Source: a virus. From it: DNA of 26,392 nucleotides. The DNA lies in the IMG/VR virus record IMGVR_UViG_3300028569_001254, positions 1 to 26,392 of that record; one strand, 5' to 3'. Below the pieces are notes generated by a model that was not told the origin of the DNA, did not search any database, and worked only from the letters and a program-made list of their open reading frames with translations. Shown here one piece after another: positions 1,854-26,392 of this stretch; the first letter of the stretch is position 1; each line of letters starts with the position of its first letter. A program made the position numbers and the translations under genes.

Positions 1854-3272
1854 ATGAGAATTTTAAAAAATTATACATATATTAAAAATAATATAACTGG
1901 TATTTTTCCTATTAATGTAGATATTCCTTTGTTGTGTAATTTTTCATTTTTTAATGATTTGTTATATAATAGTAGCATTGTCAATGACACACCAACAACG
2001 TCAACAACATATACAAATTTAACATATATAAATACACCTCAATCTTTTTTAAATTTAGATGAATCTTGTAATTGTGAAAATTTAATATCTATATACGATG
2101 ATTGTGTTTTTAGCGGTGGTAGCGCATTGATATATTTTGATGATATAAGATATCCTACTCCTACCCCTACTCCTACTAATACAAGAACACCGACCCCGAC
2201 TCCAACATCTACACCTACACCTACCCCTAGTCCTACACCAACCTTAACACCAACCCCAACGTCTACTCCTACTAATACTCCTACTAATACAGCTATTCCT
2301 ACTAATACACCTAGCCCCACTCCAACTAATACTCCAACCAGAACACCAACACTTGTTCCAACCGTAACACCTAGTCCTACTCCTACAAATACTCCAACCA
2401 ATACTCCAACCAATACTCCAACCAATACTCCAACCAATACTCCAACCATAACACCTACACCTACACCTGATGCATTTGATTATACTATAATAATATCATC
2501 AAATGTTAATAATTATGATAATGTTATTACAACATTAACACAAAATGGGTGGAATGGTACTAAAAAAGTTAATTTGAAAATAATAGTTAATTCTGGTGTT
2601 ACTGTAGGATCGACTTCAACATCAATACCAGCATTAAAAATTCCAGCATTGCCAGTTTCAAGTTCTGTATGGTTAACGAATAATGGAAATATTTACGGCT
2701 GTGGTGGTGCTGGTGGTGTAGGCGGAACTAATTCTTTCGGTGCTGCTGGTGGTGATGGTGGTATAGCCATATCTTATTCTAATGTAACTCATATTTGGAA
2801 TTATGGAAATATAAAAGGTGGTGGTGGTGGCGGTGGTGGTGGCGGCGGAAGCGTTTCTACATCTACACAATGTAATTGTGCAAATGCTCCTATTACTTAT
2901 AATTGGTCCTGTGGTGGTTCGGGTACAGGTACATGTGTTTGCGGTGATCATATTAATTGTGGAAAAGACTGTGAACCTAGAGGAAAATCTAATTTCTGCG
3001 GTAGACAATATACAGTTTCTACTAATAAAGTAGGAGGAAACGGTGGAAATGGTCAAGGATCTTCGGGTGTTGCTCAATCTGGACAAGCCGGAACAAGTGG
3101 TAAAAGTGGAGGTTCAGGAGGATCTTTAGGTTCAAATGGATCTGCTGGTACGAATTTCAGTACAACTGAATACGGTGGAATCGGTGGTTTAGCTGGATAT
3201 TATATAATGACACCGAACGGATCATTTAGATTTATGGAGGTTATTGGTATAGTTGGCGGTAGAGAAGGATAA
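1854..3272 (+). CDS. Thr-Pro-linked glycine-rich adhesin with Gp38-like tip
   Basis: This 472-residue protein has three parts. Residues 1-100 are a non-repetitive, presumably virion-attaching domain. Residues about 101-204 are a Thr-Pro linker (TPTPTNT type, with five exact 12-bp NTPT units at 2388-2447). The rest is a beta/glycine-rich tip. The tip contains [17 protein letters not shown] and [14 protein letters not shown], the NxGxIxGxGG pattern of receptor-binding tips such as T-even Gp38, where polyglycine-II helices display variable loops. Between glycine blocks sits an eight-Cys insertion (residues about 339-383: CNC, CVC, NCGKDC, FCG). The C-terminus ([18 protein letters not shown]) resembles the usual short closing strand of such tips. 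The role is inferred as host-receptor recognition. It is the first gene of the plus-strand cluster. Confidence 0.75.
2388..2447 (+). repeat. Five exact 12-bp repeats in the Thr-Pro linker
   Basis: Five perfect in-frame copies of AATACTCCAACC (Asn-Thr-Pro-Thr) lie inside the longer Thr-Pro linker of the 472-residue adhesin. Perfect identity at third codon positions suggests recent slippage or recombination. Confidence 0.9.
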
Positions 3273-3307: not shown

Positions 3308-6300
3308 ATGAATTTAAATACAAATAATCCTTACACATACAAAGATTGGGTATCTCTACAGTCTATTGATATATCACAAAATTCTTATGGTAATTATAAA
3401 ACGTATTTAAAATCATGGTATAATAACAGAAACAGTTTTTATACACAAACCGCAAAAACATTAAAAGAAAATTATATAAAACTTTTAAAGGATTTGTTGT
3501 ATTTATTTTCTGATGAAGAAAAAAATAAATTTTTAAAAGATATAGAGTTTAATAATGTTGAAGATATTATATATAATATACCATATTTTGTAAAAAAAAT
3601 AAAAGAAATATCAAGAGTTTTATTAAGCAAAAGAGAAAGTATAAAAAATTCAAAGACTAAATATAATTCGATTGGTTCTAATATAGGATTGGAAAATATT
3701 TTATATGAATTTATATTAAAAAACTTAACAAAAAAAGAAAATAATATAACACAAATACCCACATTAGAAATACAAAAATATTTACCCAATCTTTTAGATG
3801 TTAAAGATAATTTTTATATAGAAATAGAAGAATTGCACGATCCTAATAATTATTATGATTCTGATCCATCTTTAACTATATCTGAATATGAAGATATAGT
3901 CAATATATTAGCAGACAAATCATTCGAAACATTGAATGAAAATGAATTATATAATATATTATCAACTCGTTTTTTTGAAAGAGTTTCGTCCGATCAATTG
4001 TCTAAAAAATATTTAGAATATTCCGAAATAGATATTTTAAGTGGTACAAATATAGCGAATTATTCAGCCGAGTTAACCAAAAAATATTTAGGAGATACTG
4101 TTTATAGTTTAACCGCTATAAGACTTAAAGAAGTAAACACACCCGATTTTAAATTTTCTTTAAATATACAAGATGGTAACAATTGGTTTTATTGGCCTAG
4201 TGGTAATAAATCATTTAGATTAGATGGGTTTTCTAATTTTTATGAACCGATAATATTAAACAACTCTTACTTTTTATATTCCGGTGCAACAGCAGGAACA
4301 ATATACACAAATTCAGATCTATTTTTTGCTGAAAAAAATGGAGAAGTTCAAGGTGCTTGGTTACAGGGTACAAAAATAAACGAAATAAACACCAATATGT
4401 CTATAAAAGTATTGGCGGGTGAAAATAAAGAATTTATATATCCTTTTTGTGGATTTGAACTTTCTGAAAGAGGTAATAATTTTAAAAATTATAATTTAAC
4501 AGATGAATATCTAAAAAACTTTTATTTTTTAGATAAATTAAAACAAAAAGAAATTTTAGAATCTTATTATAATTCCGTTCTTCCTGATATATCGATAGAA
4601 AGTATATATATCAATAATACCACTCTTGTAAAATCAAATGCTTATGCTCAAACTTTATCCGATAGTGCTGATGTTATCATAAAACAACCAAGTTATTTAA
4701 GCAATCAAAATAGTCATTCTGATAAAAGTGATGGTAATACCGATGCAGCATTTTTATATAAAATGCATAAAACTGATTTGCCTATATTAGACGAATTAAC
4801 ATATATATATTGGCCTTATATTACATATGAGCCGAATGACAATTTGCCTATTACTATTTTAAGCGATGCATGTATACCCATATCGTTAAAAGAGTTATCG
4901 GTTAATAATTTTATAGGTTCTGTTGCTGGATTAACATTTGATACATCGGATATAATATATAAATTAAATACGAGAACCGGAGAACCAATAGAAGCTGCTT
5001 TTTTGAAAAGTAGCTCAACCGATAATCTTAATCAATTTTATAACAATATACAGATATATGACAGCACCGCAACAAAATGTACAAAATATAATAGTGGTCC
5101 TATACAATCATCGTTAGCATTTAAAGCCAATGCTGGTGAAAAAATATCTTTTATATGGGGTGATGTTGATACGTATGCTGATGATGTTTTTAAATTTTAT
5201 GAACACTCTGATTCTTGTCCGTTTAAAAATATTTCGAGCGATCTGTATCCTGATCAAGATTTTGTTAATAATGAACCTATAAACAAAAGATCAAATTGGA
5301 CAAAATGTACTTGCAAATCGGTTTTATTTTCTCCGATTGGTCATTCTGGTGAAAAGGTATATGACTATAACGGTATGGCGGATTTACTATATCACGATGT
5401 CGAGGGTATAGGTAAAAATTTTACTTTTGATAATTGGACTGATACCAGAGGGTTTACTGTAGAAGAAAGTCCACAATTTTCATTTTATAAATTAACAGAT
5501 TCTTCTAAAAGTGTAGGTTGGGGTAATGGGTATTGGAAAACCGGATCTGGTGATAAAATGGTATTAAAAACCGGAAGAAGATACACTTATTGGAGAACAT
5601 CTTTACGTATAGATATTGATGGTGCTATATCGCCTTATTATGTTATAAAATATAATTATAAAGATATAAAAGGATACCATAGTGACGGTATTTGTAGTAC
5701 CGATGTCAAAGCAGATGTTGTAATATTGTTGGATATTTCTAGAAGTCAAAGTAATGCATTTGAAGAAAATAAAAAAGTAATATCAATTTTTTATAAAAAA
5801 TTATTAGAAGACCCAGCATTAGATTATAAAGTATCTGTTATAGCATTTGCAAAAGATTCTTATGTTGTTAGCTATCTAACCAAAAACTACGGTGAAATTG
5901 ATATAAGTTTAAATAGACTAGAAATACCTAAAGGTTATCCTAATTTTGTTACTAATTTACACGATGGGTTATCGATGGCTAAATACATATTAAACGAAAC
6001 TCAGGTATATAATCCTAATGTCACCAAATATACCACAGATTTAAAAAATTTATGTCGAGATGTAAAAAAAGAAATTATAATGGGTTCTAGTTCAGCTATA
6101 TATTCTATCAATGACCCTAGATCTGATGCTAAAAAGAAATTGATAATATTCAGCGATGGTGATGTTACAACTTTAAAAGATATAAACGGTACTATATATG
6201 ATTCTAGTTCTATTAAAACTTATATTAAATCTGAGTTTAAGGATATAGATATACAAGCAATTGATGTTGGAGAATTTTCAAATTCTAATACTTTACTAGA

Positions 6301-7879
6301 AGATATAGTGTCACCAAAAAAGCAAAATTATTTCAATTTAAAAAAATATTTGGTTAATGGTGATGGTGATATCAATTCCTTTGTTGAATATCTGATACAA
6401 AGAACTATTAATGATGTATGCGGTCCTATTACACCTAGATGGAAAAAGGCTATTAAAAATAATCTAGGAACTTGGGTAGAGTCATCTCAGGAATCCGATA
6501 TGGTGATCCGACCTGGTGATTATTTAGCTTACGTACATAGACCTTCTATTATTTATACATCTGGTAGTGGTGATTTTGAGATACCTTCATTAGCATTTAC
6601 TATAAATGCTAAAATGAACGGGTGGGATTACGAATCCAATTCTTTTTCACCCATAGCAATAGGTGAAAAATTTGGTGCTAAACCTTTTTGGGCAAAGGTT
6701 TATACTGATATTGATGATAGTAATGATTTTAATAAAGAAACATCAATGTTTTCTGGACATTTAAGATTTAAAAATGGATATGTTCCTATAACTCAACCCG
6801 AAATGTCTAGTCTTATTTTAGAATATGGAAATTTTTTAACATATAAAAGAAAAAAATCTTTTTATATGAGATGGAATCAGCCTTTATATTATACACAAAA
6901 CGAACAAATAAATAAATGGAAAAAATTAGAATTTAAAAAAATACCATCAAATTTAAATGAAATGTTAAAAAATAACAGCATTGAAAAATATGCTGTTGCT
7001 ACTGATATTGATAGTGATATTACACTAGAAAGTTATACATCATTTTTACCGACAAAATATAATTACTATGCTAGAAAGGCATTTATATACAACGAAGATT
7101 TAAATTACGTTGATAGGGACTTGAATTCATTTGTTACCTATAATACAGGTATATATATAAAGCCCGAAAACCCTTATTCGAATTTATTGAATATAACATT
7201 TCCGACTGTTGCTATTACACAGGTTCCGAAAAATCTTACAACAAAAAAACAAACAGGATTGTATTTATTACCTGATAGATTGGGATCTTCTTTTTATCTA
7301 GGTAAAGGTTATACCTCAGAAATAACAAACACTAAAATTGATTTAATCGACTCTTTAAGCGCAGAAAGAATATTTTACGATTTAAACAAATATAGTGGAA
7401 GATATAGAGGGTTTTCTAAAAAAGATCAATTTACAATAGCATCGGTAAAAGAAATAAATAATCATTGGATATCTGATTTTGAGTATAATTCTGATAGATC
7501 CGGTATGATTAAAAACCCTTACCGATATCAAAAATTTGTACCTTATCACAGCGACTACGAACTTAAAAGAAAACAGTATTATGGTATATCTAGACAAGAT
7601 GATGACATGGAATTATGGTTTCCGGTAGAACCTATAAACTGGAAAGATCCAAATATAAAACAAAACTTTAAAAAACAAATTTCACTAGAAAAGTTTTTAA
7701 TGAAGTTTAAAAGTTTATTATCTAATTGTGGCGTTTTGTGTGATTGGAAAACCGATATATACGGTAACGAATTTGGTGTATTCAAATCACATAATCCTGA
7801 CATTTTAACCGAAGGTTATTCTATATTGTTTACACAGTTTTACGATGCTCTTGAAATAGATCGATTGGATGATATGTAA
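3308..7879 (+). CDS. Giant structural protein with a VWA domain (complete MIDAS)
   Basis: This 1523-residue protein has a helical, Lys-rich N-terminus (about 1-190) and a long beta-rich central region. A von Willebrand factor A domain spans about 800-1030: VVILLDISRSQS supplies the metal-binding DxSxS (D809, S811, S813), T882 in FVTNLHDG and D950 in FSDGD complete the MIDAS site, and the order and spacing fit the family. A further 490 unrecognised residues follow, rich in Tyr and Trp. VWA domains bind protein ligands through a divalent cation; here the partner could be a virion protein or a host surface molecule. Its size and position ahead of LamG, SLxxxNxNF and collar genes suggest a baseplate wedge or tail-tip component, possibly in the position of T4 gp7, but I cannot show homology. 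AATAAATA lies 9 nt before the ATG, and there is no Shine-Dalgarno sequence. Confidence 0.75.
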   Translation: MNLNTNNPYTYKDWVSLQSIDISQNSYGNYKTYLKSWYNNRNSFYTQTAKTLKENYIKLLKDLLYLFSDEEKNKFLKDIEFNNVEDIIYNIPYFVKKIKEISRVLLSKRESIKNSKTKYNSIGSNIGLENILYEFILKNLTKKENNITQIPTLEIQKYLPNLLDVKDNFYIEIEELHDPNNYYDSDPSLTISEYEDIVNILADKSFETLNENELYNILSTRFFERVSSDQLSKKYLEYSEIDILSGTNIANYSAELTKKYLGDTVYSLTAIRLKEVNTPDFKFSLNIQDGNNWFYWPSGNKSFRLDGFSNFYEPIILNNSYFLYSGATAGTIYTNSDLFFAEKNGEVQGAWLQGTKINEINTNMSIKVLAGENKEFIYPFCGFELSERGNNFKNYNLTDEYLKNFYFLDKLKQKEILESYYNSVLPDISIESIYINNTTLVKSNAYAQTLSDSADVIIKQPSYLSNQNSHSDKSDGNTDAAFLYKMHKTDLPILDELTYIYWPYITYEPNDNLPITILSDACIPISLKELSVNNFIGSVAGLTFDTSDIIYKLNTRTGEPIEAAFLKSSSTDNLNQFYNNIQIYDSTATKCTKYNSGPIQSSLAFKANAGEKISFIWGDVDTYADDVFKFYEHSDSCPFKNISSDLYPDQDFVNNEPINKRSNWTKCTCKSVLFSPIGHSGEKVYDYNGMADLLYHDVEGIGKNFTFDNWTDTRGFTVEESPQFSFYKLTDSSKSVGWGNGYWKTGSGDKMVLKTGRRYTYWRTSLRIDIDGAISPYYVIKYNYKDIKGYHSDGICSTDVKADVVILLDISRSQSNAFEENKKVISIFYKKLLEDPALDYKVSVIAFAKDSYVVSYLTKNYGEIDISLNRLEIPKGYPNFVTNLHDGLSMAKYILNETQVYNPNVTKYTTDLKNLCRDVKKEIIMGSSSAIYSINDPRSDAKKKLIIFSDGDVTTLKDINGTIYDSSSIKTYIKSEFKDIDIQAIDVGEFSNSNTLLEDIVSPKKQNYFNLKKYLVNGDGDINSFVEYLIQRTINDVCGPITPRWKKAIKNNLGTWVESSQESDMVIRPGDYLAYVHRPSIIYTSGSGDFEIPSLAFTINAKMNGWDYESNSFSPIAIGEKFGAKPFWAKVYTDIDDSNDFNKETSMFSGHLRFKNGYVPITQPEMSSLILEYGNFLTYKRKKSFYMRWNQPLYYTQNEQINKWKKLEFKKIPSNLNEMLKNNSIEKYAVATDIDSDITLESYTSFLPTKYNYYARKAFIYNEDLNYVDRDLNSFVTYNTGIYIKPENPYSNLLNITFPTVAITQVPKNLTTKKQTGLYLLPDRLGSSFYLGKGYTSEITNTKIDLIDSLSAERIFYDLNKYSGRYRGFSKKDQFTIASVKEINNHWISDFEYNSDRSGMIKNPYRYQKFVPYHSDYELKRKQYYGISRQDDDMELWFPVEPINWKDPNIKQNFKKQISLEKFLMKFKSLLSNCGVLCDWKTDIYGNEFGVFKSHNPDILTEGYSILFTQFYDALEIDRLDDM

Positions 7880-8561: not shown

Positions 8562-11500
8562 GTGACTCAGTTTACAATATTAAATTCATTTTCAAGTATA
8601 AATCAATATGATTTTGAATTTCAACCTATATCAGAAGGTTATAATTTAAAAAAAGAAAAAATAAAATTTGATAATGGGTTAAGTTTTTATTTATATAATG
8701 CTTTAAGAAAACCTAAAGATGTATCATTTAATAATAAAACTGGGTTTTTTTTAACAGATTTATATACAAATTCTGATATTTTTGAATATAAAGAACCAGA
8801 AGAAACAGTTTTAACCGAAATCGAAAGTCCTTTGATAAATATGGATGGATTTTTATTTAAAAATCAATTAAGTAGTTTATATATATCAAATACCAACATA
8901 GCTAATAGGTTAGATAATTTAAAATTTATTTTTAAAGATGATTATGTTAAAATTTTAAACATATATGATAATTGTTTAACTTATGATCAGAATTTAACAC
9001 AATTAAAATTTAATTATAATATTGTCAATTCAGACTTACAAAAATTTGATTACATTTTAAGTGATGATAATATTATTTTATTTATATACAATACTAACAA
9101 ATCAAAATATATAGACGCTTCGACATCGCCCATATCTATAAAAAATTATGAATATAATTCGTCTTTTTTTGGTAAAAAAAATTATTATTTTGGGTTTTAT
9201 TCTTATAATAAATCAAAATCATTATTAAAGACAAATCCAGAATTTACGGTTAGATATGATAACAATCCAATCGAGAATGAACCTAACCAATTAAAATATA
9301 TAGAAGATGAAGATTCCAGTTTATATAAACAAAATTATCTTTTAATGTTTCCTTACGAGTTTCAAAAAAATTTAAAATATCCTTTTTATTTCCATGCTTT
9401 AAAAAATTATCAAACGCCTGAGTATGAATATAGTAACGGCTACAATGGTTACGATAACAATTGGATTCGTAGAAAATATGAAAAAATATTCACCGGAACA
9501 AATCAAGACGGTGGTTATGAGAACGTTTATTTGGATTATACATCAAAAACAAAAATTTTTAAGTTTGAGCCTGATACTGATACTAAATTTTTCTATCCTA
9601 TTTTTGGTGATAAGTTACATATACAAGATTCCGGCTTAATAGAAGATGGTTCTATTGCTGGAAAAATACCATTCGAATCTGATAAAGTATTTTTAAACAA
9701 AATAGATTATTCTGAACATATTCCCATAACGGATGCATTGCCGCCAAAAAGCTTCACGAAGTATGATGGGACATGGGCATGTGCTTGGCTAAGTGGTAAC
9801 GATAATAACGAAAAACAATGGGTTGATCGTTATTATAATGCAGCATATTATACATACGATAAAGCTTTAACATCATATCGAACTTATTACGAAAAATATG
9901 ACCCTACCAAGGAATATGTATGGGATGAACCGTCGAAATTGTATTTTGAACCCGGTGTTAGATATTCATACCATCGTATAGGAGAAGAAACTTTAAAAAC
10001 GTATATCAACTCTTATATAACAAATGAAAATTTTAATGGTAATACTTTATTACTACATGTCGATAAATGGGATTCTAATAATTTACAAGATAATTCGGAA
10101 TATAAACATAATGGAACCTTGTTTGATAATAAAGAAGATAATTTAAAGGGAAGTTATTTAAATCTAGATGGTGAAAATCATGTTGTTTTTCCAGCAACAG
10201 AAACATTATTAAATACAGAACAATTTACAGTAAATTTATGGATAAATGTGAAAGATTGGTCAAAAATTGAAGGTAAACAAATTTTTGGTAATTTTTATGA
10301 TAGTGGTTATGGTTTATTGAACGGTTCGTCCTTAACTGCTCCTATATTTACAATATCAGAAAATACAAGTGCTTTAGCTATAACAGCAAATTATAAAATT
10401 AATATTGTAAACACAACACCTTTAAATGTTTTAAAAAATAGAGAGAATAAAATAATACAAAGACTTTCAAATTTTGATTGTTGGATTTTTGATACTAATA
10501 ATATAGTAGCAACTAGATATGATATAGAAGGTAAAATTTTAACAACAACAAATTCTGAACTATTAAAACAATATTTGGATATAATAACACAGGTTGAAAT
10601 CGATGAATATGAAAATTTATATTTATTTGATAAAAATACTAAAAACGTTGTTATTTTAAATCCTAACGGTGAATTTTTAAACTATCAACATTTAAATTCA
10701 CAAGGATTTCAAATAAACTCTGATAGTCAAATAGTATTAAGTGATAGTGATATATCAGCAATAGATAATAATAATGTGTTATGGGAAGCTCTTGGTAGCA
10801 ATTTATACAAAAATAAAAAAATATACGGGACTATAGGATCAATAAATCAATTAAGTTTCGATAGTCTTAATAATCTATGGATATTACACGATCAAGATAA
10901 AATAACAAAACTAAACACTGATAAAGATTTATTTGAATTTACATCTAGGTTAGGTATAAGAACAAACTTAAGTGAAGATAATTGTTTAGTTTCTTTCATT
11001 AAAGAAAATAAAACAGTTAGAACTATAGATTTTTTAAGAATACCTAAAAATTCTTTGGGTGATGTTCATGATGTGGCTATAATCGTTGATGTGTTAGAAA
11101 ACCAATGTTATATAATGAGTCAATCTGGAAAACTTTTAAATAAAATACCCTTAATAGCTTTTACCGAAAATTTAAATTTTAAATTTTATGCAGAAGGCGA
11201 TTTTACAGGATATCAATATTTAAGAAAGTTTGAAAATTCTGGTAGTTATTTTAGTTGGAAATTTAAAATAGCAGAATCTAATGGATCGAATAGTAGACTA
11301 TACAATTTAAAATATTCAACTGAAAATTTGTATAAAGGTTGGCATCAATTTACTTTTGTTTTTGATTCTATCGATGGTTATGCAAAAAGTTTAATAGATG
11401 GTATATTAATAGATACGGTTAATTTCGAAAAAGAAAAATATAGCATGTATTTTAATTATAAATCAAATTTATTAATAGGAGCCGCTACGATAAAAAATAA

Positions 11501-11867
11501 AATATTAAATGATGTTTTAAATTTGAAAGAATCGTATAAATTTATAGGCGAAATTTCAAATTTAAGTATATATTCAAAGGCATTAAGTGATAGTCAAACT
11601 AGAAATTTATATAACATAAACAGTCTATCCGATAAAATAAAAAATTTAAACTGGAATGTTTCAATAGGAGAACGAAATTACATAGAAAAAATAACACATT
11701 GGTTTAAAATGCGGATAACAGGATCAAAGTCTAAATATTTTAATATAAAAATACACAATTTAAATTTAACAGAAGAGCAAAAGGTTTTATTCGAAACAAC
11801 ATTGAAAAACGTTATAACTAAAATAAGTCCTTCTTATACAAATTTAAATAAAATAGATTGGTTATAA
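8562..11867 (+). CDS. LamG-like lectin protein interrupted by a propeller-like insert
   Basis: This is a 1101-residue protein with a GTG start at 8562: an in-frame TAA lies immediately before it and no ATG follows for about 90 codons. Residues 1-500 are unrecognised, rich in Tyr and Asn. A concanavalin/LamG-type fold starts near 550 (EQFTVNLWINVKDW, KQIFGNFY) and resumes near 925-1025 (GWHQFTFVFDS, GYAKSLIDGILI, LLIGAA, GEISNLSIYSKALSDSQ), the canonical second half. Between the halves, about residues 610-900, lie short repeated strand units (NLYLFDKNTK, NLWILHDQDKITKLNTD, VVILNPNGE) resembling an NHL- or other beta-propeller. The C-terminus (LKNVITKISPSYTNLNKIDW) recalls the closing segment of some phage baseplate proteins. 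LamG folds bind glycans or proteins, so host binding or virion contact is inferred. The next gene starts 1 bp after the stop. Confidence 0.75.
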   Translation: MTQFTILNSFSSINQYDFEFQPISEGYNLKKEKIKFDNGLSFYLYNALRKPKDVSFNNKTGFFLTDLYTNSDIFEYKEPEETVLTEIESPLINMDGFLFKNQLSSLYISNTNIANRLDNLKFIFKDDYVKILNIYDNCLTYDQNLTQLKFNYNIVNSDLQKFDYILSDDNIILFIYNTNKSKYIDASTSPISIKNYEYNSSFFGKKNYYFGFYSYNKSKSLLKTNPEFTVRYDNNPIENEPNQLKYIEDEDSSLYKQNYLLMFPYEFQKNLKYPFYFHALKNYQTPEYEYSNGYNGYDNNWIRRKYEKIFTGTNQDGGYENVYLDYTSKTKIFKFEPDTDTKFFYPIFGDKLHIQDSGLIEDGSIAGKIPFESDKVFLNKIDYSEHIPITDALPPKSFTKYDGTWACAWLSGNDNNEKQWVDRYYNAAYYTYDKALTSYRTYYEKYDPTKEYVWDEPSKLYFEPGVRYSYHRIGEETLKTYINSYITNENFNGNTLLLHVDKWDSNNLQDNSEYKHNGTLFDNKEDNLKGSYLNLDGENHVVFPATETLLNTEQFTVNLWINVKDWSKIEGKQIFGNFYDSGYGLLNGSSLTAPIFTISENTSALAITANYKINIVNTTPLNVLKNRENKIIQRLSNFDCWIFDTNNIVATRYDIEGKILTTTNSELLKQYLDIITQVEIDEYENLYLFDKNTKNVVILNPNGEFLNYQHLNSQGFQINSDSQIVLSDSDISAIDNNNVLWEALGSNLYKNKKIYGTIGSINQLSFDSLNNLWILHDQDKITKLNTDKDLFEFTSRLGIRTNLSEDNCLVSFIKENKTVRTIDFLRIPKNSLGDVHDVAIIVDVLENQCYIMSQSGKLLNKIPLIAFTENLNFKFYAEGDFTGYQYLRKFENSGSYFSWKFKIAESNGSNSRLYNLKYSTENLYKGWHQFTFVFDSIDGYAKSLIDGILIDTVNFEKEKYSMYFNYKSNLLIGAATIKNKILNDVLNLKESYKFIGEISNLSIYSKALSDSQTRNLYNINSLSDKIKNLNWNVSIGERNYIEKITHWFKMRITGSKSKYFNIKIHNLNLTEEQKVLFETTLKNVITKISPSYTNLNKIDWL

Positions 11868-13753: not shown

Positions 13754-14521
13754 ATGGAACTTTTAAATATAAAAAATTTTGAAAATATTGGAGATTCTTT
13801 ATCATCAATAAATATAAATTTTGATGTAATTGATTCTAGTCTACAAAAATTAAATATTAATACTGATAAATTTTTAATTCCTTATATTAATTTTTTTAAA
13901 CAAAATGAAAAAAAATTAACAAGTTTGATTGATATTCTTTACGATAAAAAACCTAATTGGGATATTATATCATCTTATGTTACTACAAATAGTGCTAAAT
14001 GGATAAAACCTATAGTTTTTATAGATTCTAATATATATAGATTTCCTGAATCTAATTTAAAAGCAACTACTGATTTCGTAATAGAAACATTTAGATCTAT
14101 ATATCCAGTATTTACAGATTCTAGTAATGAACCAAATTATATAGAAAATCAAAAAGCTGTTATATATTATTACGTAAACCATATACATAAAAAAACTATT
14201 ATGGAAGATATGACGAATTCAAATTTTGCTAATTGTGTATCGCAAGGAACTAAGACTGCTATATTAACCTGCCAAGATAAAGTAAATTTCGATAAAACTT
14301 ATTGTAATGGGAAAGAATTAACATGTTTAGGTTGTGGCGGTACACCGTGTCAACAATCGGTTTCGGTTACGTGTGTATATCCTGAAACAAAAACAACAAC
14401 AACTAATAGATATATACAAGCTATAATCAGAAGTAATTTTGAAGATATAGCCGAAAAAGAAATAAAAACAATTTTTTTAAAAATTAAAGATTGTAATTGG
14501 GTCATAGAAAGAATTTTATAA
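13754..14521 (+). CDS. SLxxxNxNF-family protein, short Cys-rich paralogue
   Basis: This 255-residue protein carries [21 protein letters not shown] at its N-terminus, the attachment-like motif shared with the genes on both sides. W-containing stretches ([17 protein letters not shown]) align with WD/W..SPIFLLYP of the upstream protein. Residues about 160-208 hold seven Cys ([29 protein letters not shown]), a compact knot-like segment. The C-terminus ends in [16 protein letters not shown], resembling the 627-residue protein end. It has no Thr-Pro linker or glycine-rich tip, so it may be the attachment half of the adhesin architecture used elsewhere in the window. Its TAA overlaps the next ATG by one base (TAATG), implying translational coupling. 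Confidence 0.65.
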
Positions 14522-15444
14522 TGATATATAACCATAAAATATATGAAGATGATGCTGTTGGTAATTCTTTAGGAAAATTGAATTATAACTTTTTAAATAC
14601 TGATATACAAACTTGTAATTTAATGTCAAAATTTTTTGAAGGTGATGGTTCTATATTTACAAATTTTTTAAAATTTTCTTCAAAATTTATAACTATATTA
14701 GATTTTATAAAAACTTTTGATGATTCTAATGTATATCAACAATCGTATACAGCCACTACAATTTTAAGTTCATATTGGGATAAAACAGAAATCACAGTGC
14801 AATATCCGATAAATTTTTTATCGGATAATCATAATAATATTAAAGATTTTTACCTAAAAACCTCGGATAACAACAGTTTAATAGAAACCGCTAAAAATTA
14901 CTTAAATAAAAATTTTTCATTATCAAATTTTAAAGAAGGTGATGTTGTTAATGTGCAATTTTTATTGTATAATTCTACATCCGACTTTTTAGATATTGCT
15001 TGGAGATCTGATGGAAACCCCGATCCTAATATAACACCTACACCTACACCCACACCAACTAATACACCTACACCTACACCAACAAATACACCTACACCCA
15101 CACCAACTAATACACCTACATCTACACCAACAAATACACCAACACCAACTAATACACCAACCGTTACACCAACAGGAACACCGACACCAACAAATGCTCC
15201 TACCTTTACTCCTACACCATCTCCAACACCGACAGGAACACCAACTAATACACCAACTAATACACCTACATCAACACCAACCAGAACACCAACCAGAACA
15301 CCAACTAATACACCTACATCAACATCAACACCAACACCTACACCAACACCTGATATTTCAGCCTTAGCTATGGAAGAGGATATAAATGATGAAATATTAG
15401 CTATCGATGAAACCGATCCAGATGATGATTATATATTACTATAA
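14521..15444 (+). CDS. SLxxxNxNF attachment domain plus Thr-Pro linker, acidic C-terminus, no tip
   Basis: I place the start at ATG 14521 (307 residues), sharing one base with the upstream TAA; an upstream in-frame TTG at 14497 would only add residues inside the neighbour. Residues about 14-30 ([17 protein letters not shown]) carry the family motif, and residues about 126-160 ([24 protein letters not shown]) complete a globular domain. From about residue 170 to 277 the chain is a Thr-Pro linker (TPTPTNT, with TGT, TRT and TST variants). It then ends in an acidic tail ([16 protein letters not shown]) instead of a glycine-rich tip. The next gene, 38 bp on, starts directly with a glycine-rich tip and lacks an attachment domain, so the two look like halves of one adhesin. 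Confidence 0.7.
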
Positions 15445-15482: not shown

Positions 15483-18400
15483 ATGGCAATACAAAAAATA
15501 GAATTTAAAACAGTGGGAACAACAAATTGGACAGTTCCTTCTAATGTAAATTCTGTTGATGTTATTGTCGTCGGTGGTGGTGGTGGTGCTGCTGGGAGGC
15601 AAGGTGGTGGTGGTGGGGGTGGTGGTATAAGCTATCAAAAAAATTATACTGTTACATCTGGACAAATAATACCTATTATTGTAGGTAATGGTGGTAATGC
15701 TGGATTAGCAAGTGGTGCTGATGGTAATAATGGTGAATTAAGTAAATTTGGAACTTTGATAGCAAATGGTGGTGGCGGTGGAAAATTAATTGGAACTGGT
15801 GGGTTAGCCGGAACCGGAAATTATAAAAACGGTGGTGTCGGTGGCGATGCTCTAAAATCTGGTGGTGCTGGATATGCTCTAACTGGTTTATTAACCGATC
15901 TATCCTTAGTATGTTCTGGCGGTGGAGGAGGAAATACCGCAATTGGGGGTTCTGGTGGGGGTGGTAACGGAGGTGGTGTTCCTCCATCAGCAGGTTTATT
16001 AGGTCTAACTATAGACGGCGGTGGTGGTTCTAATAATACAGGTGGCGGCGGCGGTGCTGGTAATGGTAGTTTTAAAGCTGCTGTATATGGTCCGTCTACA
16101 GAAAATTATGATTGTTCGGAAAATGTAGCTAAAACTTGTTATAAAGAAGAAACCGGAGAATGTTATGGGGATTGTTGGGGTACAACATTTGCTTGCGGTG
16201 GAGGAAAATTATGTTGCGGTGGTAAAACCCCAAATAATTGTCCTTCTGGTTCTAATATAACAACACAAAACGATGGGACTTTTGTACATTCGGCGGGGAG
16301 GAGCGAATGTAAATGTCAAAAAAAGAAATGGATTAAATCTACAGCATACGATTGTTCTTATAAAGTATCAAAAACCTGTACAAGAAATATTACACCGATA
16401 ATAACATCTGCGGCTGTTACGGTAAATGCAAGTTCCGGTAACGGTGGTTCTGGTATTGTTGTTATAGTTTATAGCGATACTGTTCCTTCTACTCCTACAC
16501 CTACTCCTACAATAAATACCTTAGCTTGTTATAAAGGAAAATATTACGGTGATATTATGATAAAAGCTAGTGGGGGATTTAGTGGATTTTCCAATATACC
16601 AGCCGGAAATTATATTTTAGAATATAAAAAAGGAGCTTGGAGTGCTTGGAGTTATAGTGATAGATGGAATACTGGAGGAGGTATAGTCCATTCAGGAAAT
16701 GTAAAAAACCCAGACGCAAAATATAATTTATCTGGTAGTGGATGGATAGGTTATGCACAAGCAATTGCTACAACCAAAAACTGGGAAAATACCGGAAACC
16801 CGTATTTTTTAACATTTAAACATTTAGGAGGCGAATTAAACGTTATTAATTATGATAGTCCTAATGTTTGGAGTGATAATAGATCATCATCAGAGGGAAA
16901 TCCTTTATATGGTTTGTATGAATATATTTGTCCATCCGCACCTACACCTACACCTACACCTACTATAACTCCAACACCAACTCCGACTAGGACTGCTACA
17001 CCTACACCCACTATTTTCATTAGACCTACTATAACACCAACACCAATCCCGACTATAACCCCCACGCCTACATTAACTCCTACATTATTACTATTAGCAC
17101 TCACACCCACACCCACACCTACAGCAACTCTTGCTTTAAGACCTACATCAACGCCTCTACCTACCCTTACACCCACACCTATTCCCATAAATTTACCATC
17201 TAGTGTAATATGGCCCATTATGGAACAATGGACATCACACTTTGTTAAAAAAGATATGTTTATATCTAAAAGTTGTTTTTTTAAATTTCAAAAAATAAAC
17301 AATAATTGGGTTTTAAAAAATACTATATGTGGAGAACCTTTTAATTATATTCCGCCTGTTTTACCTGTTACTCCTACACCTACACCTACTCCTACTCCTA
17401 CACCTACTCCTACACCTACACCTACACCTACACCAACCCGAACACCTACTCCTACACCAACCAGAACACCTACTCCTACACCAACCAGAACACCTACTCC
17501 TACACCAACCAGAACACCTACTCTTACACCAACCAGAACACCTACTCCTACACCAACCAGAACACCTACTCTTACACCAACCAGAACACCTACTCCTACA
17601 CCAACCAGAACACCTACTCATACTCCTACTCCTACTAATACCAATGACCCAACTTTCACACCTACACCAACACCAACTCCTAAAAGTCTTACTATTAATA
17701 TAGAAGGATTTGATGTGGGTGTTAGTATATTTGTTAGTCCTTTTGAAAGTATACCTGTACAAAATGGACAGGTTATCATTCCTACTTTTCTTGATAGATT
17801 TGAAAGAGCAATGATTGGTGCTATAATACCCGCAGATGGATATACTTATAGCTCTTTTGGTTTTGATAACGGTTCAAATTTTAATCAAAAAAACGTTGGA
17901 GCCTATATGTATGTTACTATGTCAAGTAATCAAACAGTAACTATTAAATATACACCACCACCAACTCCTACACCAACCCCTACTCCTACACCACCACCAA
18001 CTCCTACACCAACCCCTACTTCTACACCAACCCCTACTTCTACACCAACCCCTACTTCTACACCAACCCCTACTTCTACACCAACCCCTACTTCTACACC
18101 AACCCCTACTTCTACACCAACCCCTACTTCTACACCACCACCAATAGAACGTATAGTAGATATTATTTCTACGGATATACGTGAATGGGTTGTTCCTAGC
18201 AATGTTACCAAATTAGATGTTACGGTGATCGGTGGCGGCGGTGGAGGATCTGGTCAAATTGGCGGAGGTGGCGGCGGTGGCGGTATAAGTTATCAATCAA
18301 ATTATGCTGTTACAGCTGGTCAAAAAATATCAGTAAAGGTTGGAAACGGTGGGTCTAGTGGATATGTTCAAAATGGTGCTGATGGTGAGGCTAGTAGCTT

Positions 18401-19259
18401 TGATACATTAGTAGCTGCTGGTGGTAAAGGTGGTATTTTAAACGGTGCTGGTGGGACGGGTGGTTCTGGTAACTATGGTAATGGTGCTAATGGCGGTGCT
18501 AAAGACGCTAATGGTGGTAGTGGTGTTCAGCCTCCATTATTTGCAGCATCAGAATTAAAATCTGCTGGAGGAGGCGGTAAAAATGGAAACGGTGGAAACG
18601 GCGGCGGTGGATCTGGTGCTAAAACCGAAAATTCCAATGGTAGTAGTGGTGTAGCAAATACCGGAAGCGGTGGTGGATCTGCATGGGCTGGAACTTATAA
18701 TATGTCTACAACTACAACGGTAAACGCAGGATGTTATAAAAAATCTACTACTGAACAATATATTCTTGGATGGTCTTGTAAATTTTGTAAAGAATGTCCA
18801 TCTGGTAAAGACTTGTGTGGTAGTGGTATAAACTGCTCTAGAGGTGTTTATACTAATTATCCACGTTACTCTAATTGTGGTGCTAGTGCTGGTAGTTATC
18901 AAGCATGGACTTATCCAGATTTTATAAATGCATTAGACGACAAGTTTGGGTATCAATGGAAATCAAAAGGAGCGGTTGATACTAGCGCGTCGTCTTCATG
19001 GAATGAAAGAGAGTTTGATACATTGACCAAGGGTATGGCATATGGTTATGATTTTGGTAATCAATGTGTGGCGTGTGGTTATACTTGTGAAGATCAAAAA
19101 GTGTTAGTATGGGGAAGATATAGAGTGAAATGGGTTGCTGATGGGTGTCAAAAAGATGTTGTAACATACACAACTCACATAGGAACCAATGCTACCAATA
19201 ACGGAAAAATTGGTGGATCGGGTGGATCGGGTATGATAAGAATTAGATATTATAGTTAA
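15483..19259 (+). CDS. Giant multi-domain adhesin: two glycine-rich tips and four Thr-Pro linkers
   Basis: Domains of the 1258-residue protein in order are: glycine-rich tip 1 (1-335; [20 protein letters not shown] to [12 protein letters not shown]); linker 1 (334-345); a beta domain shared with the 627-residue protein (350-478; [38 protein letters not shown]); linker 2 (486-570); a small domain (575-625; [16 protein letters not shown]); linker 3 (630-735; seven 24-bp PTPTPTRT-type units); a beta domain (737-820; [16 protein letters not shown]); linker 4 (823-887; seven 18-bp units); and glycine-rich tip 2 (888-1258; [20 protein letters not shown] to [12 protein letters not shown]). Each tip carries a long Cys-rich insertion (12 Cys at about 210-299; 11 Cys at about 1083-1221). 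Such glycine-rich domains are receptor-binding modules in phage fibres. It is probably a host adhesin, although unusually it starts directly with a tip. Confidence 0.8.
17442..17609 (+). repeat. Seven 24-bp repeats in Thr-Pro linker 3
   Basis: Seven in-frame 24-bp units (ACACCTACTCCTACACCAAC plus CAGA) encode TPTPTPTR. Units at 17514 and 17562 differ by one base (Pro to Leu), which itself recurs in an alternating pattern, so blocks of two units were duplicated. Confidence 0.9.
18006..18131 (+). repeat. Seven exact 18-bp repeats in Thr-Pro linker 4
   Basis: Seven perfect copies of ACACCAACCCCTACTTCT encode TPTPTS, flanked by matching CCACCACCA segments. All third positions are identical, so expansion is recent or maintained by recombination. 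Length change in whole units would keep the reading frame. Confidence 0.92.
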
Positions 19260-21237: not shown

Positions 21238-21270
21238 TAATTTTATATTAGGGTTTTAATACTATAATTA
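21238..21270. terminator. Weak AT-only hairpin between convergent genes
   Basis: TAATT/AATTA and TATTA/TAATA can pair around a GGGTTT loop with an internal mismatch. It sits exactly where both operons end and overlaps the stop of the minus-strand gene. It lacks G-C pairs, so termination strength is doubtful. Confidence 0.2.
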
Positions 21271-22842
21271 ATTAGAAGGTGTATCATAATAAATAGCAAC
21301 CGCCCCTCCACCTCCTAATGATCGTTGTAAGAAGAATGATATTTCTGCTATTCCAGATCCTCCACCGCCTCCACCGCTACCACCACCCCCACCGTATAAA
21401 CCACCAGAACCTAGAGTTGTTGATGTAGAGAAAATACCATCTCCTCCATTCGAACCACCTTTACCGACGGTTGATCGTGAGCTAAAAGTACCAGCAATTC
21501 CACCTAAACCGTTATTTTGATTAAATGGTGATATCCCTGTACCACCACCAGATGCACCAATAAAAGTTTCGTCGTTCCATCCGACGATTATTTGATTAAA
21601 CCCTCCACCACCGCCGCCACCGCCGCCGTAAATACTCGATTGTCCATTTGACCCGTTATTACCACCATTACCACCATTACCTGTGTAACCGCCTGCTCCA
21701 CCGCCACCGCCACCAAAATATGTGTGTACACCGTTACCTCCATTGCCTCCATTGCCTCCAGCATCTCCTACGAACCCGCCGCCTACTCCACCATTTCCAT
21801 GTTGATCCCCTGACTGTCCGTTGTAACCAGCCAATAATGTAATATTGTTAAACCAACTCGTTTCATTTATTCCGCCTACATATAAATTGTATGTTTGATT
21901 TGGTGTTACTTGTAAATTGTATTTTATTCCTAAACCGCCGCCGCCTCCTCCGCCAGCTCCATTCAAAAGACCTGATCCCCCTCCACCGATTGCAACAGCA
22001 GTAACAGATGTAACATAAGATGGACATGTCCATGTATAATTTCCAGAGATCGTGAATATATTAGTATATGTAGGAGTTGATGTAGGAGTATTGGTAGGAG
22101 TGCCTGTAGGAGTGCCTGTAGGAGTGCCTGTAGGAGTATAGGTAGGAGTATTGGTAGGAGTATTGGTAGGGGTACGAGTAGGTGTTCCTGTAGGAGTAGG
22201 TGTTCCTGTAGGAGTAGGTGTTCCTGTAGGAGTAGGTGTAAGCGTAGGTGTTCTTGTTGGTGTACCTGTTGGTGTAACAGTAGGAGTGTTTGTAGGAGTT
22301 CCTGTAGGTGTTGGCGTAGGGGTAGGGGTAAGTTTTGAATTGAAATCAACTAACATAGGTATTAGATGGTTTTGTTTTTGTGATTCAAAAATAAAAATCA
22401 TTCTATTATCTAATCCAAACATCCTAGTTCCTATTAACTTAAAATCTTTAATAGGTGTATCGTCAGAATTAAAAACAGGAAGTCTTAAATTTAAATTAAA
22501 ATTAAGACTTTGGGGTAATTCTATGCCTATTCTATAAAAATCTATCGAAACATTGTATATTTTGTTTAATTCGTCTTCAAAATAATAATGATTATCCGCT
22601 ATATAATTCCTTGGATCACCGGGTTCGTCCTGATACGGCAATGCTGTTAAATTTTCAAAATATGTATAATTTTTTAATAATTGTGTTTTTTGATTACCGT
22701 CACCAAAATTATAAACAATTTTCCATATTTTTTTGGTTGGTATATAACCTGATGTTGAAAAATATAATGTCACAGGTGATACTAAATTTATAGTTTCACC
22801 GTATGTAGCATTATTTATATCTATTAATTTTTCATTAATCAT
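21268..22842 (-). CDS. PKD-like domain, Thr-Pro linker and glycine-rich tip adhesin
   Basis: This 524-residue protein has three parts. Residues 1-170 resemble an Ig-like PKD domain: [15 protein letters not shown], then [13 protein letters not shown] with the hallmark FGDG, then [19 protein letters not shown], like the closing Y..xG.Y.V strand. Residues about 171-256 are a Thr-Pro-Gly linker (TPTGTPT). From about 260 a glycine-rich tip begins with the same entry as in the 1258-residue adhesin ([20 protein letters not shown]) and ends [14 protein letters not shown]. Unlike the other tips it has no large Cys-rich insertion. The role is inferred as a host-binding adhesin with its own attachment domain. 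It follows the right-edge fibre by 11 bp, with an A-rich leader before its ATG and no Shine-Dalgarno sequence. Confidence 0.75.
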
Positions 22843-22853
22843 TTTTTTTAATT

Positions 22854-25800
22854 TTATCCAAGATTTGGTATACTAGATTCCCAACCATCAGAATATAATC
22901 CCCATTTTATAAACGCTTGATCTGGTAATGATACAGCTTTATCATTTCTTACATTAAACGAGGGAAAAACGTTATATGTTGATCCTAACGCATGAGATAT
23001 TTCATTTTCACCATTTATACTAAAAAATACAGTATTATCAGTAAATCTGATCGAAACTTTACAATAACCTATTCCTGTCGATACCGTAGACGGATATACT
23101 GTGATATTTGATTCTGCGTTTACTCCGGTTATAAAAAATTCATATTTACCATCAGATCTTCCATCAGCACCAGCACATACAAAAATCGGATAATCTGCGG
23201 CTTGAGTTTCCCATACTGGGTATCCTCCTGCCTGAGTTTGCCATACTGGGTATCCTCCTGCCTGAGTTTGCCATACTGGGTATCCTCCTGCCTGAGTTTG
23301 CCATACTGGGTATCCTCCTGCTTCGCACATCCATGTGGTTGCTCCTGATGTTATAAAGGTTCCTATTACGGTAGGCCAAACTGGTTCTGCTCCTGCTAAT
23401 CCTCCAGTTGTACATCTATATCTAAATCCTCCAGCTGTAACAACCGTAGGTCTAACCGTAGCTCCCGTTGTATACGAAGAAGATGGAACAAAAACAGAAA
23501 TACTTGTATCGGCTACCAATTGACCTATTGTAGTGGGCCATGTTGGTTGTGTACCATTTGAGGTGGTTGTTCCGGTAACTTGATTGACGTATTTATAGCC
23601 GCCTGTTGTAACAACCGTTGGTCTAACGGTAGAACCAGATGAATATGATGTCGATCCAACCCAAACAGAAATACTTGTATCGGCTACCAATTGACCTATT
23701 GTAGTGGGCCATGTTGGTTGTACGGTGTGTGAGGTGGTTGTTCCGGTAACTTGATTGACGTATTTATAGCCGCCTGTTGTAACAACCGTTGGTCTAACCG
23801 TATTATTTATAGCATACGATGTCGATCCAACCCAAACAGAAATACTTGTATCGGCTACCAATTGACCTATTGTAGTGGGCCATGTTGGTTGTGTACCATT
23901 TGAGGTGGTTGTTCCGGTAACTCTGTTTATATATTTATAAGCATTAATTACTGTGGGTTTAACATAAAAGTTATTTATATATGATGTGGAAGATACCCAA
24001 GTGGCAGGCATAGATGTTACAGTAGTTCCTAATACTGTTGGCCACGTTGGTTCTGGGTATGTTGTGTATGTAGCTCCTGCTGTTGTTGTAATATATTTAA
24101 ATCCATTTTCAGATATAGGTCTTATACCGTTTCCTATTAAATATGATGTAGGCGTGGACCATGATGCATTAGATCTTGGTATAAATCTAACACCGAAAGA
24201 TCTAGGTGCTGTAATTTTATCAAAAATAATCGTTGACCCGCTACCATCATGACCATACTGTAATGACCATGCTGTATCATTTGTAACTTGTTTTACCAAT
24301 CCAGCAGTTCTAGTAATAGTATTATTATGTGTTAATAAACCTAGCCCCGAAAATGATGGTGGATTAGATAGATATAAACTTCCTACGATTAACGATGGTG
24401 TTATTGTGCTTTGAGGTGTTCTCATCCACACCGATCCCGCCATTGGTAAGTTTGATGTAGTAATAGAATTTTCAATACCTGCACCTGTTCCTGTAATATT
24501 CCATCCTAATTGTCCTATATTTCCTGATGTAGTACCACCCGTTCCGAATTCTTCTCTTAATGAAACGTAATTAAAATCTAAAGGATCGAACCATTTATTA
24601 TTAATTTTTCCGGTTGTACTAATATTTCCAACAATAGTTAGTGTTTCATTTGGATTAGTAGTTCCAATACCAACATTTCCGCTATTGTTTATAGTGATTC
24701 TTGTATTCGTTTGAAGATTATTAGAATAGTTCGCAATTTTAAATTTATTGGAGTCACTCGCATCTTGACCAAATGACCAACCTGTTGAACCTTCTCTATC
24801 AGTAGAATACATCATCTGAATATTTTGATCTGTTGATATATGTATTCTAGGAAAGGATGCATGTCTTACGTGCAGTTTAGCTGTTGGGTTATTTGTGTTT
24901 ATTCCTATATCACCTGATTGGGTTATTCGTAATTTTTCGGTTCCATTTGTAGATATTACTATGGTATCATCAGATGGTGAAAATATACCTGTATTGGTAT
25001 CGGTTTGAAATCTTAGTGCTGGTTCTGTTACAGATCCCTTATTAATATTTATTCTGTCCAGATAAACTTGTTGTGTTGTACTAATTCCACCATAAACTGT
25101 TAATTGTTCGGGAAAATTCTCTAGTGTTGTTTGTGTATTTGTTCCAATTCCTACCCTGCCATCGGTTCCTATAACCAATCTATTATTTACAGTACTTGTT
25201 CCAAAGTTGTTTTGTCTAAATATTAATGCTTCATTTCCATTATCAATTGTTTCAAATATTAATCTGCTGTTAGAATCGCTTATATGTTCAAAAAATATTT
25301 TTCCGCTATCATTTACTCCGGTATTATATCCGAATTGAATAAAGTTAGAATTGTTTAATATTATATTACCATTTGTACTAATATTTCCATTTACTGTTAA
25401 TGCTTCTTGTGGATTTGTTGTTAAAATACCTATTTGACCTGTAGATTTTATTGTAAGAGCCTCAGTGGTATTATTATATCCAGTTTGAAAGTGAAATGCA
25501 TTATTTAATGTGGAGTTATGAAATATATTTTTAAAATATGTATCACCTTGGATATTATTATATTCTATATAAAACCCTTCAGCGGTTATACCAGTACTAC
25601 CCGCCAATCTTAACATTGGGTTATAAGCATCATTTGCTGCTTGTATTCGAATTTCTGCTGTTGATTGGTTTTCAACTATATGAATATTTGCTTCTGGTGC
25701 ATATATACCCATTCCTATTTTCCCATCATTAGCAAAAACAATATCATCGCCATCACTGTCAATAAAATGGGCGATTGGTTGAATTCCTTCTTGTGTTACT

Positions 25801-26392
25801 GATAGTGCTGGCCCCGTACCTTTATTTATAATATTAACCGCGCTTGATATTTCCACATAAGTATCAAGTCTTGTAATTGTTCCCAGCGTAGAAAGGTTTC
25901 CGGTAATTGTAACATTTCCGTCAAATGTACTATTACCTATCAAATCAAATGCCATTGACGGCTCATTCTTATTCACACCCACTTTTCCATGTAAAATATT
26001 TTTTCCGAATGCTGTCGATAGTGGTGTATTTAAGCTATATGATTCTATACCTATAACGGTTCCATTAGCCGAGATAGCTCTAGTAGGCGAAACAACTTCT
26101 AGACCTATATTTCTTCCATAGGAAGAAATAGCAATGTTATTAGAAAACACTTCTGCTCCTAAAAAGTTACCATTAGCCGAGATAGCTCTAGTAGGCGAAA
26201 CAACTTCTAGACCTATATTTCTTCCATAGGAAGAAATAGCAATGTTATTAGAAAACACTTCTGCTCCTATCATTCTGCCGAATGCACTCATAGCAATGTT
26301 ATTAGAATATATTTCAGCACCTAAAAAGTTACCATTAGCCGAGATAGCTCTAGTAGGCGAAACAACTTCTAGACCTATATTTCTTCCATAGG
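22854..26392 (-). CDS. Long tail fibre with GIGTTNP shaft and lectin-like repeats, 5' end off the right edge
   Basis: The frame is open to the right edge; ATG at 26291 is internal to a repeat, so the N-terminus is missing (1178 residues visible). In translation order it has: 18-residue repeats ([18 protein letters not shown] type); about 460 residues of fibre-shaft modules ([50 protein letters not shown]); a beta-sandwich start ([16 protein letters not shown]); about five 57-residue repeats with SY...VRPTV...YKY...QPTWPTTIG; three to four [10 protein letters not shown] 10-mers; and a C-terminal region ([32 protein letters not shown]) that looks like the second half of the beta-sandwich. The 57-mers resemble carbohydrate-binding (CBM5/12-like) repeats of phage fibres. 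The role is inferred as a long fibre with glycan-binding distal part. The adhesin gene follows 11 bp downstream. Confidence 0.85.
23211..23320 (-). repeat. Tandem 30-bp repeats encoding [10 protein letters not shown]
   Basis: Three perfect 30-bp units plus a partial fourth encode a 10-residue Trp/Tyr repeat, with degenerate units on either side (CEAGGYPVW and [10 protein letters not shown]). Array boundaries are sharp. Confidence 0.93.
23400..24180 (-). repeat. Tandem 171-bp repeats (57-residue CBM-like modules)
   Basis: Three central units are nearly identical at exact 171-bp spacing; the GGCTACCA landmark occurs at 23511, 23682 and 23853. More diverged units lie on either side. Each encodes [46 protein letters not shown]. 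Aromatic and Pro-Thr-Trp positions match carbohydrate-binding-like repeats common in phage fibres. Confidence 0.88.
26025..26392 (-). repeat. Tandem 54-bp (18-residue) fibre repeats at the right edge
   Basis: About seven 18-residue units of pattern A(I/M)SxxGxxIGxEVxSxNx; two unit types alternate, giving a 108-bp higher-order repeat. The segments starting at 26062 and 26170 are near-exact copies, and a third begins at 26332. The regular Gly and Ile/Val spacing suggests a beta-helical trimeric shaft. The array continues past the window edge. Confidence 0.88.

Follow-up and report, generated by a model that had tools for sequence, protein, structure and literature searches.

Organization of the tail-fibre-like protein

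The window, that is, the whole stretch of DNA analysed, comprises the entire IMG/VR virus record IMGVR_UViG_3300028569_001254 (26,392 bases). An ORF on its minus strand (22854-26390), open at the right edge, encodes protein P0001 of 1178 amino acids, in which residues are counted from that edge. Residues 1-608 (24567-26390) form a tail-fibre-like shaft, whose start lies beyond the right edge and which was recognized by its matches to PHROG tail fiber families (phrog_9942, E 1.9e-21; phrog_18345, E 3e-14). The C-terminal end of the protein is a predicted concanavalin-like sandwich split in two. Its first half, with the motif TTSGxIGxLGW, covers residues 609-742 (24165-24566), and its second half (residues 1073-1178; 22857-23174) runs to the C terminus, with the stop codon at 22854-22856. 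Between the halves, at a turn between two sandwich strands, lies an insert of ∼330 residues (743-1072; 23175-24164), all of these parts being encoded on the minus strand.

The insert consists of two kinds of repeat. Five modules, delimited by repeat alignment, together occupy residues 744-1019. Module 1 (54 amino acids; 24000-24161) is CBM5/12-like and matches the module profile with 78 bits, a score on its own profile, which was made from these same repeats. Modules 2 (55 amino acids; 23835-23999), 3 (57 amino acids; 23664-23834), and 5 (53 amino acids; 23334-23492) were likewise found by both repeat alignment and module profile, module 5 having F in place of W at its start; module 4 (57 amino acids; 23493-23663), placed by repeat alignment, is 89% identical in DNA to module 3. 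The modules are followed on the same strand by five 10-residue units of the form W-x-x-x-A-G-G-Y-P-V (residues 1020-1069; 23184-23333), three of the five identical, which are encoded by a tandem repeat of 30 bases with 98% matches.

An earlier note, made from the DNA letters, had read positions 22857-24590 as a β-sandwich interrupted by five 57-residue repeats and a set of 10-mers. The motifs that it quoted are all present (GNIGQLGW at residue 623, FGVRFIP at 732, YCKVSIR at 1109, and KWGLYSDGW at 1162), as are the 10-mers between the flanks, in five W-to-W units. Its count of five repeats is correct, but their length is not uniform (54, 55, 57, 57, and 53 residues, each from W or F to the next), and a start at 24590 takes in a few linker residues, since the sandwich begins at about residue 609 (24566).

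An uninterrupted family of C-terminal sandwich domains

Viral contigs were searched for DNA encoding the N-terminal motif TTSGxIGxLGW and looser forms of it, genome contigs were searched once, and a profile built from 16 uninterrupted domains was run across all loci (L004-L041). A complete, module-free domain was found in 18 viral contigs and one genome contig (L039). It is always C-terminal in its ORF, with 202-233 residues from the domain start to the end of the ORF. The near-copies L028 and L030 were entered as two within the 18, to which L006 and L015-L020, being contigs already counted, added nothing; outside the 18 are six loci with no family match (L012, L022, L026, L032, L037, and L040), three with short, chance-like matches (L021, L027, and L041), two cut at a contig end (L009 and L036), and one broken across several frames (L038). 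L014, which was outside the training set, scored 159 bits on the family profile. Of the complete domains that the motif brought to light in viral contigs, a single one, on the contig of L002, is interrupted. Uninterrupted relatives are, by these counts, common.

When seven whole members were scanned, two (L004 and L011; 59.1 and 54.5 bits) reached the 27-bit cut-off of PF22237, SO2946-like_C, and one of these two also exceeded the cut-off of Laminin_G_3. On one viral contig (L007, 6108-8299), an uninterrupted sandwich is present in each of three adjacent ORFs, a local gene expansion.

For structure prediction, AlphaFold2 was run on 18 whole relatives with L031 as the first row, giving a model with a pLDDT of 87.9 and a pTM of 0.86. 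Its best solved matches were Shewanella SO2946 (Foldseek E 1e-8), with 200 residues aligned at Z 17.2, and bacterial lichenases (Z 17.1-18.1), followed by ERGIC-53 and legume lectins at Z about 16. As modelled, the uninterrupted family is a concanavalin-like fold, the same as that of the SO2946-like C-terminal domain (PF22237; PDB 2a5z); the window sandwich is assigned this fold by homology to the modelled whole relatives. Unlike the SO2946-like domain, the window flanks carry an insert, and they are too diverged for the Pfam model.

The break falls at residue 119 of the L031 model in the window protein and also in two relatives described below, L002 and L080. The model strands around it comprise residues 114-120 and 126-133, so the break lies at the end of the first strand, before the second. 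This turn varies in length among whole members in the alignment, which would make it a natural insert site.

The two flanks as parts of one domain

Because the motif search selects on the first half alone, the second half provides a free test of membership in the family. The first half scored 31 bits against the profile of the 16 uninterrupted domains, at model positions 5-64, and 30.8 bits by itself. For the second half, a profile with rows from the window, L002, and L080 gave a profile–profile score of 30.6 on family columns 135-194 of 224. None of 400 column shuffles reached this value (mean 11.9, S.D. 2.3, maximum 21.3), and the reversed profile scored 12.5. With two rows, the true second half scored 24.4, against 10.5-13.1 for fifteen insert segments treated in the same way. 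The two-row hhalign score fell from 24.4 to 10.1 with one extra flag and rose to 30.6 when L080 was added.

Joining the flanks gave a second line of evidence. The joined window flanks scored 43.7 bits on the family profile, a value reached by none of 798 tails from the same protein and none of 1000 shuffled tails. For L002, the joined flanks scored 32.5 bits, above all 1062 control tails (maximum 32.2) and reached by 1 of 1000 shuffles. Joining brought no gain for L080 on the plain profile, where 998 of 1000 shuffled tails equalled or exceeded the true one. Whole members scored 81-189 bits in leave-one-out comparisons, against the 43.7 and 32.5 bits of the window and L002, which by these scores are distant members of the sandwich family. 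A joined profile of the three nested members (window, L002, and L080) matched the family with 97.8% probability.

Direct searches with the window sequence gave no comparable signal. Neither window half reached any Pfam cut-off, and PF22237 (27 bits) gave no match to either. Among 50,697 phage records, the 588-amino acid query had no match at E 1e-5, nor did either half at E up to 1; a sequence search of the PDB gave no match for the window stretch or for the whole-domain profile. By the profile comparisons, the flanks are confirmed at the sequence level, beyond chance, as one sandwich interrupted once, after about residue 742. The nested architecture proposed in the earlier note is borne out by whole-domain relatives, by halves that map to them in order, by a single break turn, and by a one-module form (L080), all seen in sequence comparisons.

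The same note had named a LamG gene in the window as a further nested sandwich, which is at best weakly supported. In that gene (8562-11867), Laminin_G_3 (PF13385) matches one piece at residues about 536-610 with E 0.0058 and another at residues about 889-1012 with E 5.4e-5, each below the curated cut-off when scored singly, and the ∼300-residue gap between the two pieces gave no convincing Pfam match.

Identity of the modules

An alignment of 64 modules gave the consensus W-x-A-x-T-A-Y-x-x-G … N-G-x-x-Y … E-P-T-W-P-T-T-x-G-x-T-V-x-D-G-x-V-T-W. CBM_5_12 was matched by 24 of the 64 at E up to 0.1 (best E 8.9e-6), and among solved structures chitinase A1 came first, through its chitin-binding domain, with an E value of 0.054 that is not significant by itself. 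A PHROG that bears the name "head decoration" (phrog_20658) was matched by 59 of the 64. The window protein itself had no match to CBM_5_12 (PF02839; cut-off 26.2 bits) at E up to 1, and relatives listed individually scored 16.8, 18.8, and 17.5 bits, all below that cut-off. The family nearest to the window modules was GbpA_2 (PF18416), at 21.1 bits at best against a cut-off of 26.6.

With CBM5/12 (PF02839; chitinase A1, 1ed7) the modules share the order W...TAY..G..V...NG..Y.C...T over the first 36 profile positions; they differ from it in a longer C-terminal part, EPTWPTTxGxTVxDGxVTW. The modules are best described as CBM5/12-like and not as members of the family. The label "carbohydrate-binding-like" used in the earlier note can be kept in the sense of a resemblance to CBM5/12, with the window protein lying below every curated Pfam cut-off.

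The window protein scored 16.5 bits at best against the decapeptide repeat region PF25296 (cut-off 45). Among phage records, the 10-mers matched Natrialba phage PhiCh1 (E 0.01-0.02), but on the other strand from its tail fibre gene, and the match was discarded as chance.

Nested relatives and evolution of the array

An orthologue of the window protein was found on a 62,125-base IMG/VR contig (L002), with 70% identity over the region and the same order of parts, which argues against an origin of the architecture in the faulty assembly of a single contig. It has five modules and four 10-residue units, where the window has five. A scan for the module repeat yielded 174 confirmed relatives. Among the best 80 of these 174, which were examined, L080 and L081 combine the sandwich motif with one module (residues 429-479) between the halves. 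Their ORFs are identical, are located on two contigs, and lack the 10-residue units; the second half is 39-40% identical to those of the window and L002. Comparison of these sequences with the whole members shows an apparent series of zero, one, and five modules per sandwich.

Modules 1 and 5 are closest to their counterparts in L002 (68 and 66% DNA identity, respectively), other pairs involving them being 47-58% identical. For modules 2–4, DNA identity is 76-89% within the window and 75-82% within L002, but 66-75% between the two phages. The internal 10-residue units have identical DNA within each phage; between the window and L002 they differ at six codons, and all six differences are synonymous. 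These patterns fit internal units that are repeatedly homogenized or expanded anew while their peptide is preserved.

A candidate receptor arm at the fibre tip

The reading that we favour, with a probability of about 70%, is that the protein ends in a tail-fibre-like adhesin tip, in which an SO2946-like sandwich carries, at one turn, a string of CBM5/12-like modules that serves as a glycan-binding receptor arm. As the lectin-shaped tip is opened at one loop by five chitin-binding-like modules, this phage of bacteria probably carries an extendable sticky arm for host capture. Small CBM5/12-like modules appear, by comparison with uninterrupted and one-module relatives, to have entered the turn between neighbouring strands of the sandwich. 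The string appears to have lengthened by in-frame tandem duplication, and the 10-residue unit that joins the last module to the sandwich to have expanded separately. Since both ends of the insert adjoin at the turn, the sandwich should still fold as one domain, from which the modules would project as a side arm. They may bind a host-surface polysaccharide, weakly as single modules and strongly together through avidity, and so bring the fibre tip or the remaining tail to its receptor, as in evolved Dit, with adsorption as the benefit. Sugar binding by the modules is inferred from their CBM5/12-like sequence.

This arrangement resembles that of evolved Dit proteins (evoDit) in siphophages of Gram-positive bacteria, for which carbohydrate-binding modules are reported to be located in loops of the galectin domain (PMC7291167), with flanks that align to the full classical protein and one or two modules per insert, varying between phages (PMC7291167, PMC10688798). 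The inserts are reported to carry carbohydrate-binding domains and, when moved into phages with classical Dit, to have restored adsorption to and infection of EPS-bearing lactococci (PMC10688798). In the window protein, too, the insertion is internal, and its flanks align to a full uninterrupted protein. Here, in contrast to evoDit, the modules are hosted by an SO2946-like concanavalin sandwich that ends a tail-fibre-like protein, the inserts are five ∼55-residue CBM5/12-like modules rather than BppA-like CBMs, and a 10-residue array is present in addition. No Dit family was among the Pfam and PHROG matches of the window protein at E up to 1; its matches were tail fiber families. The BACON repeats of crAss-like phages are likewise a tail-associated tandem array, grown by duplication, of domains named for carbohydrate binding, but the domain is a different one, and the abstract of that account describes no insertion within a host sandwich (PMC6949934). 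A literature search with little coverage of subscription journals found no SO2946-like or tail-fibre concanavalin domain reported to contain carbohydrate-binding modules. Insertion of modules into a phage tail protein is known from evoDit; what is new is the different host domain. The evolved-Dit principle would be extended to a fibre-tip domain, with visible steps from none through one to five modules, and a sandwich split around CBM5/12-like repeats may serve as an aid in reading long phage fibre tips labelled "unknown."

The main rival accepts the nested architecture but gives the modules the role of a spacer or surface decoration, like virion Ig-like domains, which would provide length, shielding, or weak nonspecific sticking. 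Module relatives are spread across the virion, in capsid, Hc3, and hub proteins, whose main task is other than host recognition, and such a role would also agree with the "head decoration" name of the PHROG that 59 of 64 modules match and with a number of 10-residue units that differs between two orthologues. We nevertheless consider it unlikely, given the CBM5/12-like sequence in 24 of 64 modules and the position of the modules here, within a lectin-fold domain that terminates a fibre.

Far less probable is an arrangement in series, with a sandwich-like N-terminal piece, the repeats, and an unrelated C-terminal domain following one another. The negative joining test of L080 would agree with it, and direct AlphaFold2 modelling of the window stretch (residues 591-1178, 588 residues) from a two-row alignment was uninformative, with a mean pLDDT of 31.6; but it is the second half of the whole family that the C-terminal half matches, at a score no shuffle attained, whole members end where this half ends, and the break is identical in three proteins. 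Because tandem repeats are prone to misassembly, copy numbers in these metagenome contigs may be off, but that the architecture itself is an assembly artefact or chimera is scarcely credible when a separate contig at 70% identity (L002) has the same order of parts and L080 and L081 have the one-module form in common.

Modules in other virion proteins and further features of the window

The favoured reading concerns the fibre tip; the same module was also found in other virion proteins. In L045 (1348-2421) and L056 (1340-2419), it interrupts the major capsid protein; in an alignment to the counterparts from phages PaMx28, Rowa, and Effie, which lack it, the module accounts for the extra stretch in the two. 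In L068 (1954-3645), a match to head closure Hc3 encloses the module; in L110 (2386-3537), two baseplate hub domains flank it; and in L045 (2632-3414) and L049 (2629-3333), it occurs in further ORFs whose likeness to the SU10 adaptor is weak and stays below the cut-off. Module insertion is, from these cases, not confined to the fibre tip studied here, and its presence in a major capsid protein suggests that virion proteins exchange this one plug-in more widely.

A broader proposal, which we put forward only tentatively and regard as more doubtful than not, is that the module is a general virion plug-in with which unrelated phages coat their particles with putative glycan-binding patches. The fibre-tip copy would be an adjustable arm, changed by in-frame gain and loss of 171- and 30-base units, which stay alike within any one phage. 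If so, the module would have been taken up into loops of several kinds of virion protein (major capsid, head closure, adaptor, hub, and fibre tip), and arm length and avidity would vary in this lineage through the 171-base and 30-base units.

Further features were noted elsewhere in the window. At 2-1306, a fibre-like protein open at the left edge has 14-residue repeats of the type SANWDSVYTSVKDT (42-base units). Proteins with long TPTPT or TPTNTPT linkers are encoded at 1854-3272, 14497-15444, 15483-19259, and 21268-22842; in some, the linkers are joined to glycine-rich domains, and PF21722 was matched on 15483-19259 (E 6e-21). A von Willebrand factor A domain (PF13519, E 6.4e-7) is present in a 1523-amino acid protein at 3308-7879, within a phage structural region. 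The fibre itself has, close to where its known part begins (26043-26390), 18-residue repeats encoded by 54-base units, of which a 108-base double unit is repeated at 100%; L002 has a longer array of units similar to these.
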